Positions 54,640 through 64,000 of a stretch of 64,000 nt of DNA are shown here, one piece after another. Below the pieces are notes generated by a model. It saw only the letters and a program-made list of their open reading frames with translations. It was not told the DNA's origin and made no database searches. Made by a program: the position numbers and the translations under genes. Position 1 is the stretch's first letter, and each line of letters opens with the position of its first letter. The stretch comes from Smaragdicoccus niigatensis DSM 44881 = NBRC 103563. Its GTDB lineage: Bacteria > Actinomycetota > Actinomycetes > Mycobacteriales > Mycobacteriaceae. The stretch spans positions 62,001-126,000 of the forward strand of contig NZ_AQXZ01000017.1 in assembly GCF_000380645.1 (NCBI RefSeq). The letters are read 5' to 3'.

Positions 54640-57600
54640 ATGGCTGCCACCACCCCCCGCTCGCGCCGAGATTCGCGCGCCAAGAACCGACCACGGAAGG
54701 TTCTGACCACCGGACTCGTTTCGGCCGGACTGTTGTTCGGCCCGAGTGTGGGCGTCGCGTCTGCTGCACCAGCTGTCACGCTGCTCGGCCACTTGTTCGG
54801 AACCGGCACGGCCACAGCATCGTCGACCTTCATCCAGCCCCGATCGCGTGCGCCCTTTGTGTTCACGGGTGCCTCGACGTCGCTGTTCCCGAAGAGTTGG
54901 GCTAACTCGGCCGCTGCGTCGAATAGCTGCGGACTGGTGTGCAACGGCGCCGACGGCACCGCCGACCACCCCGATGGGCAGAACGGTGGCTTGATTCGGG
55001 GCAACGGTGGCAACGGCTACGACTCGACCACGGACGGAGTCTCCGGTGGGAACGGTGGCTCGGGCGGCCGGTTCAGTGGCAACGGCGGTAACGGTGGCGA
55101 CGGGGGCTCGGCCGCCGCAGGTGGCAACGGCGGCAATGCGGGTCGCCTCCGGGGCGATGGCGGATCGGGTGGCAACGGCGGTTCGGGCACTGCAGGAACC
55201 AATGGAGCGGCCGGTACGAACGGCTCCGCCGGCGCCAATGCCACGGAAGTCGATGGCACGCAAGCGAACCCGAACGCGGTCGGCGGCAACGGTGGAGACG
55301 GCACAAACGGGGCTGCCGGTGGCAGTGGCACCGCGGGCACGGCGGGCGGTGCGGGTGGCGCTGGCGGCAAGGGCAGCCTGTTCGGCAAGGGCGGCAGTGG
55401 TGGCAACGGCGGCGCTGGCGGAAACGGCGGAACTGGTGCGACTGGTGGCAACGGCGGTACTGGCGGCAACGGCGGTATCGCGGTTGGCTACACCTCGACC
55501 ACGGCAGGCGACAACGGCGGCAACGCAACTGGCGGAAACGGCGGCGCAGGCGGTGCGGCAGGTGCCGGTGGGTCGGGCGGCTCCGGCGGTGCGGGGGGTG
55601 CGGCCGGAGGCGCTGGCACCGGAGGTCGAGGCAGCGGAACCGTGGGTACCGCGGGCGTAAACGGATCAGCGGGAGCGAGCGGCTCGTCCGGCGTGATGGG
55701 CGACGGCGGCAACGGCGGTCCCGGTACCGGTGGCAACGGTGCGGACGGCGCTGCTGGTGGCGCCGGAGGAAACGGTGGTAACGGCACGGGAGGCGCAGCT
55801 GGAACAGGTGCGACGAACGGACATGTCGGAACCGGTACCGGCGGAGACGGCGGCAACGGTGGCGACGCGACGACGCCCGGTGGTAACGGCGGCGCGGGCG
55901 GCAACGGCGGCTCGAACCTCGGACTCGTCGGCAATGGTGGAGACGGCGGAAACGGTGGCGCGGGAGCAATCGGAGCGACTGGCGCCACAGGAGACCCAGG
56001 CACGAACGGGACGATCGGCACGACCGGCACCGGAACATCGGGTGACCCAGATGCATTGGGCGGCAAGGGAACCGATGGACTCAGCGGTGGTAACGGTGAA
56101 AACGGAGGAAACGGCGGCACCGGCGGAGCGGGCGGCAATGGCGGCAACGCCGGCCTGTTCGGCACCGGTGGAAACGCTGGAAACGGCGGCGCTGCGGGCG
56201 ACGGAGGCAACGGTGGCACAGGAGGCACCGGAGGCACCGGAGGCACCGGTGGGACCGCGGTCGGCTACAGCCCGACGGCAGCCGGAGAAGACGGTGGCAA
56301 CGCTGTCGGCGGTGCTGGCGGCAACGGCGGTGCAGGAGGCGGCGGAGGCGCAGGTGGCCTCAGTGGCAGCGGCGGCGCGGCCGGAACTGCCGGCACGGGC
56401 GGGAACGGCACTGGAGCTGGCGGATTAACTGGCGGATCCGGGACGACGGGCGCAACCGGAGCGACCGGACTCGTCGGCGCCGGCGGCAGCGGCGGATCTG
56501 CGACCGGTGGCAACGGCGCTGACGGAACCCCCGGTGGAGACGGCGGAAATGGCGGGGACGCCACTGGTGGCGCAGGTGGTACCGGCTCGACCACGGGTGC
56601 CGCGGGCGCCGGCAACGGCGGTAACGGTGGCGACGGCGGGGACACCACCACTATCGGCGGCGCTGGAGGCAACGGCGGAAATGGTGGTTCGAGCCTCGGG
56701 ACCAGCGGCAACGGTGGAAACGGTGGAAACGGTGGCGCCGGAGGAACTGGCGCGGACGCCGTTAACCCGACGCCACCGACCGACACCGCCGCGAGCGGCG
56801 CGAATGTCGACGATTACTACAACGGCGCGGGCATTGGTGCCGGAAGCGTTGGTACCGGTACCAACGCGGGCGACGGTAGCAACGGAACAGACGGCCAGAA
56901 CGGTGGAAACGGGGGCAGCATTCCCAACTTCTACAACGGCGCGGGACAAGGTGGAGGGACCGGTAACGGAGGAAATGCCGGAAGCGGAGGAAATGGCGGT
57001 GCTGGTGGTGGAGCCGGCGGCAATGGCGGGGGTATTGGCGCCCTCAACGGAGTCGGACTGGCCGGCAGTACCGGCCACGGTGGAAACGCAGGTAACGGCG
57101 GAAATGGTGGGGAAGGTGGCGGAGTCGGTGGCGACGGCGGCAACCTCGGCGACACGAACGGCGGAGGTTTTGCCGGCGGTACCGGCAATGGCGGGAATGC
57201 TGGCGACGGCGGTACTGGTGGAGCTGGCCTGGCGGGCGAGTCAGGTGGGACCGGGGGTAACGGTGGCGCCGGTGGCAGCGGCGGCACCGTAAGCGGAGCC
57301 GGGGGCAACGGCGGCACGGGCGGCAGCGGTGGCACCGGGGGAACAGGCAGCGCGGGCGGTCCTGGTGGAAGTGGCGGGAACATTGCGGACAGCAATGGAG
57401 TGACTACGGGCACCGGCTCTGACGGCAACGCGGGGAATGCCGGCAACGGCGGCGACGGTGGAGTAGGTGGAACCGGCGGCGTTGGAGGAACTGGCGGTTC
57501 CGGAGGCGCAGCCGGAACTGGCATCACGAGTGGAGCAGGCGGCAGTGGAGGTTCCGGAGGGTCCGGAGGAACAGGGGGCGCTGGCGGTGCTGGGGGTGCC

Positions 57601-57711
57601 GGCGGTACCATTGATGCCTTCAGAAACAACGGCGGATCCGCCGGCAGCGCGGGCTCCACTGGGCAAACCGGCAGCCAGGGCGCCACGGGAACCCCGGGTA
57701 CCAACGGCTAG
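54640..57711 (+). CDS. Exported Gly/Asn-rich PGRS-like repeat protein without PE domain
   Basis: A 1023-residue protein. A basic N-terminus and signal peptide (VLTTGLVSAGLLFGPSVGVA, cleavage near ASAAPA) replaces the PE domain that leads mycobacterial PE_PGRS proteins. From about residue 115 on, nearly all is GGxGGN repeat. Two copies of a module of roughly 270 residues can be aligned by the landmarks AVGYTSTTAGDNGG / AVGYSPTAAGEDGG and NLGLVGNGGDGGNGG / SLGTSGNGGNGGNGG. Then come units with YYNGAG, FYNGAG, LNGVGLAG and TNGGGFAG, and a collagen-like GxxGxx end. In PE_PGRS proteins such arrays form beta-solenoids with Ca-binding or PGII-type folds; cell-surface location is inferred. gcgaggag precedes the ATG. 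Confidence 0.88.
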   Translation: MAATTPRSRRDSRAKNRPRKVLTTGLVSAGLLFGPSVGVASAAPAVTLLGHLFGTGTATASSTFIQPRSRAPFVFTGASTSLFPKSWANSAAASNSCGLVCNGADGTADHPDGQNGGLIRGNGGNGYDSTTDGVSGGNGGSGGRFSGNGGNGGDGGSAAAGGNGGNAGRLRGDGGSGGNGGSGTAGTNGAAGTNGSAGANATEVDGTQANPNAVGGNGGDGTNGAAGGSGTAGTAGGAGGAGGKGSLFGKGGSGGNGGAGGNGGTGATGGNGGTGGNGGIAVGYTSTTAGDNGGNATGGNGGAGGAAGAGGSGGSGGAGGAAGGAGTGGRGSGTVGTAGVNGSAGASGSSGVMGDGGNGGPGTGGNGADGAAGGAGGNGGNGTGGAAGTGATNGHVGTGTGGDGGNGGDATTPGGNGGAGGNGGSNLGLVGNGGDGGNGGAGAIGATGATGDPGTNGTIGTTGTGTSGDPDALGGKGTDGLSGGNGENGGNGGTGGAGGNGGNAGLFGTGGNAGNGGAAGDGGNGGTGGTGGTGGTGGTAVGYSPTAAGEDGGNAVGGAGGNGGAGGGGGAGGLSGSGGAAGTAGTGGNGTGAGGLTGGSGTTGATGATGLVGAGGSGGSATGGNGADGTPGGDGGNGGDATGGAGGTGSTTGAAGAGNGGNGGDGGDTTTIGGAGGNGGNGGSSLGTSGNGGNGGNGGAGGTGADAVNPTPPTDTAASGANVDDYYNGAGIGAGSVGTGTNAGDGSNGTDGQNGGNGGSIPNFYNGAGQGGGTGNGGNAGSGGNGGAGGGAGGNGGGIGALNGVGLAGSTGHGGNAGNGGNGGEGGGVGGDGGNLGDTNGGGFAGGTGNGGNAGDGGTGGAGLAGESGGTGGNGGAGGSGGTVSGAGGNGGTGGSGGTGGTGSAGGPGGSGGNIADSNGVTTGTGSDGNAGNAGNGGDGGVGGTGGVGGTGGSGGAAGTGITSGAGGSGGSGGSGGTGGAGGAGGAGGTIDAFRNNGGSAGSAGSTGQTGSQGATGTPGTNG
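54985..57706 (+). repeat. Intragenic GGN-coding repeat array
   Basis: About 2.7 kb of degenerate nine-base periodic DNA (ggcggcaac and variants), with a superimposed duplicated module of about 0.8 kb. Such arrays change length by recombination or slippage, and assembly here should be checked with long reads. Confidence 0.85.
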
Positions 57712-59702
57712 TCGCCCACCAACCGCCGCAGCGCCTTCCGCACGAGTTGGGGGTCGGTCGTCGTCCAGTACGGCGGCAGCGATGCCCGCAAGAATCCGCC
57801 ATAGCGTGCGGTCGCCAGCCGCGGGTCGAGGACCGCAATGACGCCGCGGTCGTCGACGCTGCGCAGCAATCGCCCAGTGCCCTGCGCGAGAAGCAGAGCG
57901 GCGTGCGTGACGGCGACCGTCATGAAGCCGTTCCCACCGCGGGATTCGACTGCCCGCTGACGAGCAACGAGCAGCGGATCGTCCGGCCGGGGGAACGGAA
58001 TGCGGTCCATGATGACGAGGCTCAGCGAGCGCCCCGGCACATCCACGCCCTGCCACAACGTCAAAGTGCCGAAGAGAGAAGCGGATTCGTCCTCGGCGAA
58101 CCTAGTCACGAGAGCCGGCATCGAATCGTCACCCTGACAGAGGACCGGCGTGCTGAGCCGTTCCGTCATCGCTTCGGCGGCCGCCCGGGCGGCGCGCATC
58201 GACGAGAAGAGCGCGAGGGTGCGCCCGCCGGCCGCTGTGATGAGTTCCTCGATCTCGTCGAGGTACGCAGGCTGCAGACCGTCGCGGCCCGGCTGGGGGA
58301 GATGCTTCGCGAGGTAGAGGATTCCGGCCTTGCGGTGATCGAACGGTGAGCCGACATCGAGCGCCGACCACGCCATTCCCGGCGGTATCTCTTCCGCGGA
58401 CTGTGGCGGCAAGCCCCAGTTGATCGCGAGGCCGTCAAACGACCCGCCGACCTGCAGAGTCGCTGAGGTCAGAACGACTGTCGAGGGCTCGAACAGTCGG
58501 GTGCGCAGCAAGCCGCCGACGGCGAGCGGCGCGACTCGAACGACTCGACGCTGGGCACCGCTGCGCATGTCGTCGAACGCGAGCCAGACGACGTCACGTC
58601 GGGCTGCGGGGTCTGCGTCGAACGCGGTGAGCGCGCGGACGGCGGCGTCGTGCACGTCGTCGATCGCCGCGACGGCCACGCCGCGGGCAGCTGCGGTGTC
58701 GGGATCACCCTTGTCGGACTGTCCGGGTGGCGCGAGTGCAGTGCGCACGTTCCACGCGGAGTCGCGGATCAACGCGAGGACCGCGGCGGCGCCGTCGGGC
58801 ATTTCGTCCCAACGCCCCGGGGCGAGCTCGCCGAGTAGCTGGTCCCACGCCTCGGCGGCGGCTTCGAGTCGATCGACGTCTCCGTCTTCGACGAGCTTCG
58901 TGCACCGACGCGCGGCCATCGTCACCATGCCTGGGCTCAGCTCCGCGGTAGCGGCGCTGGTGACGCGGTCGACGAGTTCGTGGGCTTCGTCGATGACGAC
59001 GACGTCGTGTTCGGGCAGGACCGGGATACCGCTGATCGCGTCGATCGCGAGCAGCGCGTGGTTGGTGACGACGACATCAGCCTTCGACGCCTTCGCCCGC
59101 GCGAGTTCGGCGAAGCACTCCTCGCCGAAGGGGCAGCGCGTACGTCCGAGGCACTCGCGCGAATTGACGCTGACCTGACGCCACGCACGGTCTGAGACAC
59201 CTGGCTTGACCTCGTCGCGGTCTCCGGTCTCGGTTTCCGCAGCCCAGGCGTGCAGTTTCTGGACTTCCCGGCCGAGTCGCGAGATCGCAAAGGCGTCGAA
59301 GAGTTCCTCGGCGGGATCTTCGGGAACGGTGCCCTCGGTCTTGTTGCGGCAGACGTAGTTGTTGCGGCCCTTGAGAATCGCGAACTTCGGAGTGCGCCCG
59401 AGTGGCCCTTCGAGCGCCTTCGCCAGGCGGGGGAGATCGCGGTCGACGAGCTGATTCTGTAGCGCAATGGTCGCGGTCGAGACGACGACGGTCTGAGCGG
59501 TCTCGAGCGCGTGCCGAATACTCGGTACGAGGTAGGCGAGCGACTTACCGGTTCCGGTTCCGGCCTGCACCGCGAGATGACGTTCTGCGGAGATGGATTC
59601 GGCGACCGCGGAAGCCATCGTCAACTGGTTCGCGCGCTCGACACCGCCAAGAGCCTGTACGGCTGAAGCGAGAAGCGACGGAACGTCGGGCAGATCAGCC
59701 AC
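57708..59702 (-). CDS. DinG-family ATP-dependent helicase with Fe-S cluster
   Basis: A 664-residue XPD/DinG superfamily 2 helicase. Walker A is AVQAGTGTGKSLAYL, motif Ia VVVSTATIALQNQL, the four-Cys iron-sulphur site is NNYVCRNK and RECLGRTRCPFGEECFAE, motif II is VVVIDEAHELVD, and the late motifs are LFGTLTLWQGVDVPGRS and QGTGRLLRSVDDRG. It unwinds 5'-3' and resolves R-loops or D-loops. The start is GTG 59702 with TACCCT seven bases upstream; ATG 59753 would overlap the divergent gene. Its stop overlaps that of the Gly-rich gene by three bases. Confidence 0.92.
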   Translation of the reverse strand: MADLPDVPSLLASAVQALGGVERANQLTMASAVAESISAERHLAVQAGTGTGKSLAYLVPSIRHALETAQTVVVSTATIALQNQLVDRDLPRLAKALEGPLGRTPKFAILKGRNNYVCRNKTEGTVPEDPAEELFDAFAISRLGREVQKLHAWAAETETGDRDEVKPGVSDRAWRQVSVNSRECLGRTRCPFGEECFAELARAKASKADVVVTNHALLAIDAISGIPVLPEHDVVVIDEAHELVDRVTSAATAELSPGMVTMAARRCTKLVEDGDVDRLEAAAEAWDQLLGELAPGRWDEMPDGAAAVLALIRDSAWNVRTALAPPGQSDKGDPDTAAARGVAVAAIDDVHDAAVRALTAFDADPAARRDVVWLAFDDMRSGAQRRVVRVAPLAVGGLLRTRLFEPSTVVLTSATLQVGGSFDGLAINWGLPPQSAEEIPPGMAWSALDVGSPFDHRKAGILYLAKHLPQPGRDGLQPAYLDEIEELITAAGGRTLALFSSMRAARAAAEAMTERLSTPVLCQGDDSMPALVTRFAEDESASLFGTLTLWQGVDVPGRSLSLVIMDRIPFPRPDDPLLVARQRAVESRGGNGFMTVAVTHAALLLAQGTGRLLRSVDDRGVIAVLDPRLATARYGGFLRASLPPYWTTTDPQLVRKALRRLVGD

Positions 59703-59727
59703 GGAGACGAGGGTACCGTTTCTTGCT

Positions 59728-60885
59728 ATGCACTCTGGCCCGCCAACGCGCACGTTTGTCGGGTTGAGTGGATTTGCTGCTGCGGCAACGGTAGTGCTCC
59801 TTGCCCTGGGCGAGTTGTTCCCGAGATCGCTCCTCGGCCGCTACGAAGGCACTGACCTCGCGGTCTACCGACTCGGTGGCCGCGTTTGGCTCGAGGGACA
59901 AGATCTGTACGGGCGTCTTCCGGAACTTGCCGGCGGGGTGCCACTCGAGTTCACTTACCCGCCGTTGGCTGCGATCCTTTTCTCGCCTCTGGCCATGGTT
60001 CCGCTCCACGTCGCCAGTGTCGCGGCGCTTGCCGTGTCGACGGTGTTGCTCGCGGTCATCGTGTGGACGTTCCTTGGGGGAGTGCGGGGGATGACGGCGG
60101 CGTTCGGGATTGCCGTCGTTGCGATCGTGCTCGAACCGATTCGAACGGGCCTCGGATATGGGCAGATCAACGCCGTTCTCGTCGCGGTGATCGCCGCGGA
60201 CTGTCTCCTGGCGCCCAATCGGAAGTGGCGGGGAATGGCGGTCGGTCTGGTCGCCGCGATAAAGCTGACGCCACTGGTGTTCCTGCTCTTCTTCCTAGCC
60301 CGGCGAGATGTTCGGGGAATGATCAACGTCGTCGCCGGGTTCGTGGGCGCCACGCTCCTGGCCACCGCCCTCGCCTGGAATGACACCATCGAGTATTGGA
60401 CGAAGGCACTCTTCGATACGAGCCGAATCGGCCCGACGAGTTACGGCCGAAACCAGTCGCTGCACGGTGAGGTGGCACGGGTCTTCGGCGATCACAGTCG
60501 GCTTTCGTCGGTCGCCTGGATCGTGCTGTCACTCGCGGTGATCGTCGCGGCCTTCCTCATCGCGCAGCGCGCCGACCCACGACATGGATTGCTCGCGGTG
60601 GCGATGTGCGGCCTGCTCATCTCGCCGATTTCGTGGACACACCACTGGATCTGGATCGTCCCGCTGCTCGTCGTTCTGGTGATCGACAAGCGGTGGGTGC
60701 TGGTGTCTTCAGGCGTCCTCGTGTTCGGCGTCGGAATGCCAATTCTGTTGCCGGACAACCGCGAAGACTGGCCGAGCTGGGGTCACCTGGTCAACTCGCT
60801 CTATGTGGTGTGGGCTCTTGCCTACCTAGCAAGCGAAGTGGCCTGGACACGAAAGTGGGCCAGACCCGATGGCCTGGCCCACTGA
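59728..60885 (+). CDS. GT87 alpha-1,2-mannosyltransferase-like membrane protein
   Basis: A 385-residue polytopic glycosyltransferase of the DUF2029/GT87 type. It has about ten helices, an early catalytic loop with an Asp (RYEGTDLAVYRLGGR), FTYPPLAAILFSPLA, GYGQINAVLVAVIA, LVAAIKLTPLVFLL, the polar outer loop GRNQSLHGEVARV and the membrane helix with SWTHHWIWIVPL. In mycobacteria such enzymes add mannose to PIM, LM and LAM from polyprenyl-phospho-mannose. Start ATG 59728. Confidence 0.9.
   Translation: MHSGPPTRTFVGLSGFAAAATVVLLALGELFPRSLLGRYEGTDLAVYRLGGRVWLEGQDLYGRLPELAGGVPLEFTYPPLAAILFSPLAMVPLHVASVAALAVSTVLLAVIVWTFLGGVRGMTAAFGIAVVAIVLEPIRTGLGYGQINAVLVAVIAADCLLAPNRKWRGMAVGLVAAIKLTPLVFLLFFLARRDVRGMINVVAGFVGATLLATALAWNDTIEYWTKALFDTSRIGPTSYGRNQSLHGEVARVFGDHSRLSSVAWIVLSLAVIVAAFLIAQRADPRHGLLAVAMCGLLISPISWTHHWIWIVPLLVVLVIDKRWVLVSSGVLVFGVGMPILLPDNREDWPSWGHLVNSLYVVWALAYLASEVAWTRKWARPDGLAH
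60855..60882. terminator. Stem-loop at the 3' end of the mannosyltransferase gene
   Basis: GTGGGCCAG and CTGGCCCAC, nine-base arms around ten bases, reaching the stop codon. It lies between convergent genes 14 bases apart and has no T tract. Confidence 0.6.
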
Positions 60886-60899
60886 CTCGTACGACTAAC

Positions 60900-61556
60900 T
60901 CACGAGCACTTTATGTCGCCCATGACGAGTTTCGCGTCGAGCGTCGTCACGTTCGTTGCCTTGATGATCTCTGCGCTCAACAGCTTCGCTTTGACTCCCT
61001 GTAGCAGCGCGCCACCCTCGGCTTCGATGCCGACACCGTCGGTGTCGTTGACCCAGGGAACCGACGGCGCACCAAGGGCCCGAATCTTCGGTTCGATGAT
61101 GGACGGAGCCTTGACGAGATCCGTGTTGCCTCGAAGCGTCAGTGCCGCGTCGGCCGTCGGAATGTCGACGTTGATGCCCGTGACATCGAGGTTGGCACCG
61201 GCGATGTTGATGTACAGCGTCACCGGCTGACCAAGGAACTCCATGTCGTGCGTGAGACAGAGGCCGTCCGCGGTCGCGTGCGGCACCTGGAAGGTGGCGA
61301 GCCAACGAATGCCGGGACTTCCGTCGTAGTTCTTGATGTGCATGCCACGGACAAACGCGCCATTGTGAGTGGTGCTCAGGCTGTTGATCGTGACGTCGCT
61401 GTCGGCCGCGGACGCGATGAACTCACTGGCGTAGGCACCCTGGCTCACGAGACTGCCTGCGATCGCCGCAGTTGTGGCCAGACCGCCGACCATGAGGATC
61501 GAGGTGCGACCCCATCGCGTCCGGTTGACGGTGTTCTCAGTCAGCTCCTCGTTCAC
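60900..61556 (-). CDS. DUF6230 exported protein (second copy)
   Basis: A 218-residue protein. It starts at GTG 61556 with RTRWGRTSILMVGGL, a signal-anchor helix (GGLATTAAIAGSLVSQGAYA), and an outside beta-rich domain with ATADGLCLTHDMEFLGQPVT and TLDAKLVMGDIKCS. The tripartite RTRWGR start and the Cys pair (GLCLT and IKCS at the C-terminus) recur in the other DUF6230 gene. The GTG overlaps the preceding stop by four bases (GTGA). Function unknown; it is the last gene of the operon. Confidence 0.85.
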   Translation of the reverse strand: MNEELTENTVNRTRWGRTSILMVGGLATTAAIAGSLVSQGAYASEFIASAADSDVTINSLSTTHNGAFVRGMHIKNYDGSPGIRWLATFQVPHATADGLCLTHDMEFLGQPVTLYINIAGANLDVTGINVDIPTADAALTLRGNTDLVKAPSIIEPKIRALGAPSVPWVNDTDGVGIEAEGGALLQGVKAKLLSAEIIKATNVTTLDAKLVMGDIKCS

Positions 61557-62383
61557 TGGAACATCCTCACTTGGGTGATCGGCCCGAACACCGCCGGCTG
61601 ATCGATCGGCGTCGTGATCTTCGCGGCCCAGGCGTCCAGGTCAGCCTTGATGACCGGGAGTTCGGGCAGCGGCACACCGGCGTCGACGAGGACGGCGACA
61701 AGCGGGATGAGCTCCTTGATCGGGATGCACGGACCGACGTTCTTCAGCGGTCCGTTTACGTACGGCTGGAAGACCGCGGCGATCAGCGCAAAAACCTCAT
61801 CGAGACGGCCCTGGAACTGGCCCTTCTCGCTGTTGACCAAGGTGTAGAACGTCTGCGCAGTGACACAGAGCTTCAGGCTGTTGATCGTGACCCAGAGTTC
61901 GATCGTCGTGTTCTTGAGGTCATTTCCGATCGTGAGAACCTGGGCCTTGTTGGACTTGGAGCCGTTGAGGTTCTGCATGAGCCAGGTGTGATCGGGCCGG
62001 ATGCTCTTGATCCGGATGTCGTCCAGCTCGAGCTTGCGCACCTTGAGGTAGACCGTGTCGGGAGGGCTCAGTTGCCCGTTTGCCATCCGGACGCGTGCGC
62101 CCCAGTACGCCTTGGTGAGTCCGTAGATTTCGGCCGTCGGCGACGTGATGTTGATCGACGCGTTCGCCGTCCGCCAACCCGGTTGTGGGAAGGGGATGGG
62201 CTCAAACGGCGCCTTGGGGGCGCCTCCGCCAAGTGCCGACGCGAGGTTGCCCGGGCCGATCGCCATGAGCGCAATGGCGAACGCCAGACCGAACATCATG
62301 GCAGTCCGGACGATTGTTCGTTGGCCCCACGGGCGAGTATCCACGCCCTCGGTCGATGTGCGCGCCCGGCGCGACGCCTTCAT
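61553..62383 (-). CDS. Unknown exported protein between DUF6114 and DUF6230
   Basis: A 276-residue protein with a basic start, a hydrophobic signal or anchor (MFGLAFAIALMAIGPGNLA) and a beta-rich middle (ASINITSPTAEIYGLTKAYW, KVRKLELDDIRIKSIRPDHTW). Two cysteines (LKLCVTAQ and VGPCIPIK) could pair. The C-terminal part is helical. No family is recognised, although the middle resembles the DUF6230 outside domain in its strand pattern. It is coupled at both ends by four-base overlaps, so it belongs to the same complex or pathway. Confidence 0.75.
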   Translation of the reverse strand: MKASRRARTSTEGVDTRPWGQRTIVRTAMMFGLAFAIALMAIGPGNLASALGGGAPKAPFEPIPFPQPGWRTANASINITSPTAEIYGLTKAYWGARVRMANGQLSPPDTVYLKVRKLELDDIRIKSIRPDHTWLMQNLNGSKSNKAQVLTIGNDLKNTTIELWVTINSLKLCVTAQTFYTLVNSEKGQFQGRLDEVFALIAAVFQPYVNGPLKNVGPCIPIKELIPLVAVLVDAGVPLPELPVIKADLDAWAAKITTPIDQPAVFGPITQVRMFQ

Positions 62384-62904
62384 GCCGGAGTCTCAATCTC
62401 TTCCAGCTCGGTGTCCTGCGCTGCCGCCTCTTCGGTGACCTTCTTCTTCCTACCGAACGAGCGGGGCTTCGCAGGTCCCCAGCCCAGGGTCATCGAAGCA
62501 CCGATGACGCCGAACAACATGCCGACGAACAGTCCACCGAGGTTTGAAATGACGATCGAGACGATCGCAACGAGCAGTCCGATGACGCCGGCGAAAAGCT
62601 TCTGCGTCGGGAAGAACCAGGTCGCGAGCCCGCACAGCAGCAGGGTGCCGCCGGTCAGCCAGCCGCCGAGACCGGTCAGGCCGGCCTTGACGATGACCTG
62701 GATCGGCACCATCGACATGTCGAGCAGGAAGTAGGCGCCGACAAGCATCCAGAGGCCGCCCCAGAACGGACGCGTCCGCCGGAATCCGCGGAACCAGATG
62801 CGGCCGTCGTTGAACAGATTCTTGACGCGCTGCACATGCGAGATGGCAACAGGTGCCAGCTCGGTCTCCTGAACTGCGTCTTCGAGAACAGAGTCGGTTA
62901 GCAA
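62380..62904 (-). CDS. DUF6114 membrane protein
   Basis: A 174-residue protein starting at TTG 62904, with a strong GGGGAGG seven bases upstream. It has four predicted membrane segments, opening with FRRTRPFWGGLWMLVGAYFL and continuing GGWLTGGTLLLCGLATWF, VIGLLVAIVSIVISNLGGLF and GMLFGVIGASMTLGWGP. The RPFWGG start is a DUF6114 trait. Its start overlaps the upstream DUF6230 stop by seven bases. Family usually paired with DUF6230 in actinobacteria; role unknown. Confidence 0.87.
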   Translation of the reverse strand: MLTDSVLEDAVQETELAPVAISHVQRVKNLFNDGRIWFRGFRRTRPFWGGLWMLVGAYFLLDMSMVPIQVIVKAGLTGLGGWLTGGTLLLCGLATWFFPTQKLFAGVIGLLVAIVSIVISNLGGLFVGMLFGVIGASMTLGWGPAKPRSFGRKKKVTEEAAAQDTELEEIETPA

Positions 62905-63650
62905 CTCTTCACCTCCCCGGGGTGGATCGACGCGTCAAACGTAGGCGCTTGAAGCGATCCGAGGATGCTGGCGCCACGCGCCGTGCCCTCAACGTTTTCA
63001 AGATGTGCCTGACCCTCGCTTCCGTCGACACCAAATCCACCGGGCTGGCCGTTGAGCGAGACACCGTTGATGGACAGGAGGTCGGCGGACTTTCCGATCA
63101 GAGCGTTCGAGAGAGTCACGTTGTGGCCGACGAGATGAGTCACGTCGAACTGCAGGTTGGCACCTGACGCGAGGCCGGAGTCCGGCGGTACCGACAGGAC
63201 GACCGAATACGTGCCGCCGAGGATCGTCTGCGACGCAATGATGCAGACACCCGTCAGGGTTCCGCTACCCACCGCAGCGTGCAGGATGGCCTCCGGCCTG
63301 GTCTTGCCCTTGGTGTCCGTGACGTTCAGCGAGCTGACGACGATGTCGAGGCCCTGGGCGTCGAGCGCCTGGACCGCCAGCGACATCGGCTTGTCGGCAA
63401 CGTTGAAGTTCGCCGCCAGTGCGCCCTGTGCCATTGCGGCACCGAGGCCGGTGACGATCGCCATGGATGGGACCAGCACCGCTGCTCCGCGTCCCCACCG
63501 GGTGCGGTTCTGCGGCGTGGCGTGCGCGGCTTCTCGAACCTCGGCGTTGAAGGAGTCCGCAGCAGCGAAAGCCTTGGTGCGGAGAGTCACGGTTTGGGCT
63601 ACGAGAGCGCTGCCGCCGCGATTCGCCCAATTCTTCATTTTCGTGATCAC
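62898..63650 (-). CDS. DUF6230 exported protein (first copy)
   Basis: A 250-residue protein. GTG 63650 is preferred because GGAAGG lies ten bases upstream; ATG 63638 is the alternative. After a 45-residue cytoplasmic head comes RTRWGRGAAVLVPSMAIVTG, a membrane anchor, and a beta-rich outside domain with GSGTLTGVCIIASQTILGG and the C-terminal HPGEVKSC. It has the same plan as the second copy. A conserved Cys lies near the C-terminus. The operon order is DUF6114-DUF6230-DUF6114-unknown-DUF6230. Confidence 0.85.
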   Translation of the reverse strand: MITKMKNWANRGGSALVAQTVTLRTKAFAAADSFNAEVREAAHATPQNRTRWGRGAAVLVPSMAIVTGLGAAMAQGALAANFNVADKPMSLAVQALDAQGLDIVVSSLNVTDTKGKTRPEAILHAAVGSGTLTGVCIIASQTILGGTYSVVLSVPPDSGLASGANLQFDVTHLVGHNVTLSNALIGKSADLLSINGVSLNGQPGGFGVDGSEGQAHLENVEGTARGASILGSLQAPTFDASIHPGEVKSC

Positions 63651-63732
63651 TTCTGGTGTTCCTTCCCGCTCTTGGGGAATTGCTGCGGACGTGCACATTG
63701 CGCGGCTGCGCTCTGGGGAAAAATCAGGGTTT

Positions 63733-64000
63733 TCATGCGTTCACCTGCGTGGGGGTGAGTTCTTCGTCGCTCATGCGGCCCTGCGGCAGTGTCCAACCGA
63801 AGGCCCAACACCCACCGATGACCGACAGGAGCATTCCGGCGACGAAGCCGCCGAGGTTGGTGAGCGGGAACGACAGCAGGCCGACGATCACGGCGAGGAC
63901 GCCGGCGACGTTCTTGCTCTGTGGACGGAACCAGATCATGAAGCCGAGGAACAGATCGACGATTCCGAGCACGAGGCCGAAGATCGCGCCGAGGCCGGCG
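63733..64000 (-). CDS. DUF6114 membrane protein, partial (5' end outside window)
   Basis: The C-terminal 88 residues of a DUF6114 protein; the frame runs off the window with no start. Visible segments are IVDLFLGFMIWFRPQSKNVA, VLAVIVGLLSFPLTNLGGFV and GMLLSVIGGCWAFGWTLPQG, matching the paralogue at 62380-62904 segment for segment. It lies 83 bases before the first DUF6230 gene, on the same strand. Confidence 0.85.
   Translation of the reverse strand, partial: AGLGAIFGLVLGIVDLFLGFMIWFRPQSKNVAGVLAVIVGLLSFPLTNLGGFVAGMLLSVIGGCWAFGWTLPQGRMSDEELTPTQVNA

Follow-up and report, generated by a model that had tools for sequence, protein, structure and literature searches.

The window (the whole 64,000-nucleotide stretch analysed) ends within an operon of six genes, A-B-C-D-E-F; gene A is wholly, and gene B partly, outside it. 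The sequence continuing past the window end is referred to as L001, and window position 64000 corresponds to position 6001 of L001. The genes and the feature that follows them are:

Gene A: L001:6141-6818, upstream of B and outside the window, DUF6230 protein
Gene B: 63733..64000 in the window, (-) strand, DUF6114 four-helix membrane protein (PF19609), cut by the window end
Gene B, complete: L001:5734-6150, likely start ATG at L001:6126
Gene C: 62898..63650, (-) strand, DUF6230-like exported protein, ORF open to 63698, most likely start GTG at 63650
Gene D: 62380..62904, (-) strand, DUF6114 membrane protein (PF19609)
Gene E: 61553..62383, (-) strand, exported protein with an additional helical segment, putatively a very remote relative of DUF6230
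Gene F: 60900..61556, (-) strand, DUF6230-like exported protein, with no DUF6114 partner after it
Hairpin: 60855..60883, (-) strand, terminator-like and GC-rich, 3' of F, from fold prediction

Inspection of the ORFs confirmed all five leftward frames of the window, at the place and in the direction given for them in an earlier note on this DNA, which had described an operon of five genes. Reading upstream, a check proposed in the same note, completed B and added a true DUF6230 gene, A, giving six genes. The last four genes had been said to be linked by overlaps of 4 to 7 bases, and these were found to be 7 nt for C/D, 4 nt for D/E and 4 nt for E/F, while A and B lie close together and a gap of ~80 nt separates B from C. 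When the stretch 60840-60905 was folded, the hairpin 3' of F gave -32.7 kcal/mol (z -4.9); it was not listed by the terminator scan and its T tract is short.

Upstream the operon is flanked by nicotinamidase-like and nicotinate phosphoribosyltransferase-like genes, named by sequence inspection only, and downstream by a convergent GT87 glycosyltransferase gene (59593-60885, PF09594 171 bits) and a dinG-like helicase. The helicase gene adjoins a frame at 54640-57711 for an exported protein of 1023 residues, PGRS-like and with a signal-type N-terminus, which consists almost entirely of Gly-Gly-X/Asn repeats.

Protein families of the operon

Judged by the Pfam gathering cut-offs (27.9 bits for PF19609, DUF6114, and 27.5 bits for PF19741, DUF6230), D with 106.1 bits, full-length B with 101.3 bits and the visible part of B with 61.4 bits all belong to DUF6114, as had been read from the window, and A with 38.9 bits belongs to DUF6230. 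The NCBIfam scores for D were weak and far below cut-off. C, E and F gave zero Pfam or NCBIfam matches even at E<=10. Profile-profile comparison placed A, C and F in one superfamily (C-A 97%, F-A 95.5%, C-F 99%), and by this measure C and F are clear remote relatives of DUF6230, outside the Pfam family proper. The order first proposed for the window, DUF6114-DUF6230-DUF6114-unknown-DUF6230, is thereby kept for both DUF6114 genes, and for C and F the name DUF6230 applies in the wider, profile-profile sense only.

The 276-residue protein E had been regarded as a third type of outside partner. When compared with a broad DUF6230-superfamily profile it matched at 84.9% probability (pairwise E 6e-6, 121 columns) against 0.2-0.3% for reversed-profile controls, which suggests that E is probably a very remote DUF6230-like protein and that the four outside proteins (A, C, E and F) probably all belong to one kind. 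Every one of them contains exactly two Cys (residues 136 and 250 in C, 173 and 219 in E, 100 and 217 in F); when A, C and F are compared, the invariant residues are R, W, G and these two Cys only. The earlier observation of RTRWGR before the anchor and of C-terminal Cys in both DUF6230-like proteins was borne out, C and F both having NRTRWGR ahead of the hydrophobic helix and a C-terminal Cys. C has an N-terminal extension of ~50 residues, RTRWGR, a hydrophobic helix at 56-74, then the sequence QGALAANF with an AxA-like site, and a beta domain; with its basic N-terminus, its helix and this site it has the features of a signal peptidase I substrate, and the same pattern is found in many relatives.

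The AF2 model of C, built on a shallow alignment of 11 sequences, is all-beta with a mean pLDDT of 76 (mostly 80-90 in the beta part) and strands of 21-30 residues, along which hydrophobicity alternates (lag-1 negative, lag-2 mostly positive). For E, with 4 sequences, the model is weak and of low confidence (62.9). Fold comparison against the PDB, by Foldseek and VIA-align for C and by VIA-align for E, returned weak and unrelated matches, with a best Z of 3.1 for C and of 3.8 for the low-confidence model of E, and a PDB sequence search with the C and E profiles gave nothing useful. No PDB structure stands out for the C model, so that its fold points to no function.

Copies and relatives of the operon

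The same genome has six places with DUF6114 matches. Two of them belong to the window operon, and the other four are on contig C19, which carries a tandem of two complete six-gene modules, as confirmed with class profiles. The six-gene module is therefore present three times in this genome. Outside it, a full A-F set is found in Skermania sp. ID1734, with a reversed S26 signal peptidase gene between B and C, and a Nocardiaceae MAG apparently contains two six-gene copies, one of them split over two contigs. These were the two named genomes matched by the E profile, which had no further match in the 347 other genomes of the order; a wider E profile also matched two species of genus g22, of another family (G192 and G132), both with C-D-E-F and a divergent S26 gene. 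In a distant actinobacterium (G407, the sole genome of its family in the genome set) the order is DUF6230-6114-6230-6114-exported gene-6230, where the fifth gene shows no sequence link to E (hhalign <1%) and equals it by position only. A six-gene order that recurs in two further copies within the genome and in other genera is not due to chance.

The last DUF6230-like gene of G407 and that of G192 grouped with the F genes of the operons in the window, in Skermania and on C19 (support 0.89, in one FastTree run on a difficult alignment), and this grouping of F-type proteins from different families by operon position suggests that the F position is old. The dN/dS values were 0.05-0.24 for all genes measured, that is, for the C19 copies against their MAG counterparts with E of the second pair left aside, the divergence between the window copy and its relatives being too great to give dependable figures. 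The measured genes are under purifying selection. The operon is real, conserved and under selection.

A fourth E stands alone on contig C9, head to head with a divergent S26 signal peptidase gene (L018:8378-9757). This site has neighbours similar to those of the full operon in Skermania sp. ID1734, and because the full set there sits at apparently the same place, the C9 pair of E and S26 may be the remnant of an older copy.

DUF6114 was detected in 69/348 genomes of the order and DUF6230 in 22/396 of the phylum. At nearly every DUF6114 locus examined a DUF6230-like gene lies immediately upstream, a frequency that is a biased estimate since loci were mostly chosen by DUF6114 or DUF6230 matches; the pairing itself is real. 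Besides Streptomyces and Rhodococcus, many further actinobacterial genomes have such pairs, some of them in lineages of another class. Scanning viral contigs for DUF6114 and searching plasmids with D of the window both gave zero relatives.

Fused outside domains and signal peptidase genes

In Streptomyces the gene directly after DUF6114 encodes a further exported family, here called T:

T: L087:9345-10745, separate gene, unnamed exported family; the linker is long and of low complexity, and the C-terminal domain matches no Pfam model

In several genomes of several families the DUF6114 frame runs on through another hydrophobic stretch into an outside T domain, mostly with a long Pro/Ser/Thr-rich linker before it (L089, L093-L095, L099). 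The fused domain matches the separate T of Streptomyces at 92% by profile, and an iterated T profile finds more. These fusions join the same membrane part to an outside partner domain and so argue for a pairing of DUF6114 with outside partners in general, whereas the outside proteins of the window are separate genes. E occupies the place in the window operon that T does elsewhere, and the match of E with T (16%, controls 0.3-0.4%) is only suggestive of homology; as it is weak, the fusion argument reaches E by analogy only. In a distant lineage a DUF6230-like domain (92.5%) is the N-terminal part of a protein that also contains transglycosylase and M23 peptidase domains (L085:4506-7040), which fits a location in the cell wall.

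Taken as genomic evidence, the conserved order, the overlaps, the three copies, the positional orthology of F across families and the fusion of DUF6114 with an outside domain favour one complex. A to F very likely constitute one envelope system, and the genomic evidence gives good support to an envelope complex anchored in the membrane. The multi-subunit envelope complex envisaged in the earlier note is thus upheld in outline and changed in composition, with six genes and with an E that appears related to the other outside proteins. It is quite improbable, in our estimate, that each DUF6230-DUF6114 pair works alone and that E and F are independent and kept by coregulation only: single pairs without E or F are indeed common, and the same genome has one solitary E accompanied by an S26 gene, but the gene overlaps, the order kept over three copies and several families, and the outside domain fused to DUF6114 elsewhere all count against it.

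S26 genes were found beside the locus in seven cases (raw count), namely at L018 (the C9 site of the same genome), L019, L081, L090, L091 and L117, and downstream in L093; that of L019 is a signal peptidase I (TIGR02227, 85 bits). The window and C19 copies have no adjoining S26 gene, the genome having the C9 one, and most DUF6230-DUF6114 loci are without an S26 gene nearby. In the TasA-SipW system a dedicated signal peptidase is encoded next to exported beta proteins, and relatives of the operon resemble it in having a signal peptidase gene beside genes for exported, putatively beta, proteins; there is no detectable sequence relation, and the window copy differs in lacking an adjoining S26 gene. 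Conceivably the beta proteins, once the adjacent signal peptidase has released them, polymerise in this manner into a layer or fibre at the surface, with DUF6114 as assembly platform. The S26 genes adjoining in several lineages, the repetition of one beta domain within each operon and the T proteins with their long linkers are in keeping with this, but the window proteins have no Pfam match to TasA/camelysin-type families at E<=10 and the S26 gene is not near most DUF6230-DUF6114 loci, so that we regard such a polymer as unlikely.

Lipid links and a proposed function

In the Streptomyces-type locus L087 the gene order is thioredoxin-DUF6230-DUF6114-T-pyruvate kinase-Pta-Pfk, and the S. coelicolor genes for pyk2 and a Pfk are SCO5423 and SCO5426, respectively (PMC5801464, PMC12727718). 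From this synteny (pyk2/pta/pfk) and the numbering, SCO5420 should be the DUF6230 gene. SCO5420 has been called a cholesterol esterase and is up ~37-fold on Tween (PMC7494193), and the family, which had been taken as uncharacterised, is therefore not wholly without a reported function, if SCO5420 is the orthologue that synteny indicates. A novel family of actinomycete cholesterol esterases was described by Xiang et al. 2007, as cited in PMC4098958 and PMC3514274.

The two C19 modules together (L008:4803-16181) are bordered on one side by WS/DGAT, 3beta-HSD-like and acyl-CoA carboxylase genes, which were identified from the MAG counterparts in L021. On the other side are a PucR regulator and an alpha/beta hydrolase. 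Such lipid-gene neighbours are confined to the C19 copies; that of the window lies between the dinG-like and the nicotinamidase/nicotinate phosphoribosyltransferase-like genes. Together, the Tween induction of SCO5420 and the C19 neighbours favour a role in lipid handling.

One way to read these links is that the beta proteins are themselves secreted esterases for cholesterol or fatty esters, with DUF6114 only as export or anchoring partner. The name and the induction of SCO5420, a DUF6230 gene by synteny, are in line with this, and so is the family of Xiang et al. 2007, as far as it is known from the citing papers and with its DUF6230 identity putative; the window proteins would share their superfamily with SCO5420, by synteny. 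When searched for in superfamily subgroups, however, a conserved Ser-His-Asp/Glu catalytic set was absent, and no invariant His was seen in the three subgroups tested nor across A, C and F, whose invariant residues are R, W, G and the two Cys only. A classical esterase triad is thereby unlikely, and the C model is all-beta and not an alpha/beta hydrolase. Secreted esterases are accordingly an improbable identity for these proteins in our view.

The best explanation at hand, which we hold tentatively and at somewhat less than an even chance, is a repeated-unit, membrane-anchored and wall-facing complex that handles lipids. Its unit would consist of an exported all-beta protein of the DUF6230 superfamily (A, C, E, F) and a four-helix DUF6114 membrane protein (B, D). 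The beta proteins would be exported by means of the N-terminal basic motif and hydrophobic helix and probably cut at the AxA site by signal peptidase I, the S26 gene adjoining in several relatives, and each may be closed by a disulfide between its two Cys. DUF6114 would hold or dock them at the membrane; in other actinobacteria, where the outer domain is covalently joined to DUF6114, the long linker could span the wall. The most likely task of the complex would be to bind hydrophobic molecules (fatty esters, sterol or wax-type lipids) and pass them between the outer layer and the membrane. A bolder form of this proposal, possible but doubtful, is an undescribed envelope machine of which a Skermania-like bacterium has three modules, and in which DUF6114 platforms carry several copies of a new beta fold, matured by signal peptidase, into or across the wall and lipids are moved between surface and membrane. 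A lipid role, if true, would add a lipid route through the actinobacterial wall besides the Mce-type systems.

Within the literature searched, DUF6114 is mentioned nowhere and DUF6230 in one paper only, in a promoter list. The six-gene operon seems to have been described as a unit by nobody; the DUF6230-DUF6114 pair is already known and uncharacterised. This pair, in S. coelicolor SCO5420-SCO5421 by synteny and on the Rhodococcus plasmid pR8L1 AOT96_RS32575 and AOT96_RS36215, has the same two families in the same order as the window, and the Rhodococcus pairs overlap by 7 nt, as C and D do. In contrast to it, the window operon comprises two pairs and, in addition, E and F, and its C and F proteins have diverged so far that the Pfam model no longer recognises them. 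The six-gene form shows that a larger system can be built on such pairs, and it links them to a third outside partner and to a signal peptidase. On two Rhodococcus plasmids (L101 and L104) a DUF6230-DUF6114 pair is located beside a glycosyltransferase gene and other envelope genes.
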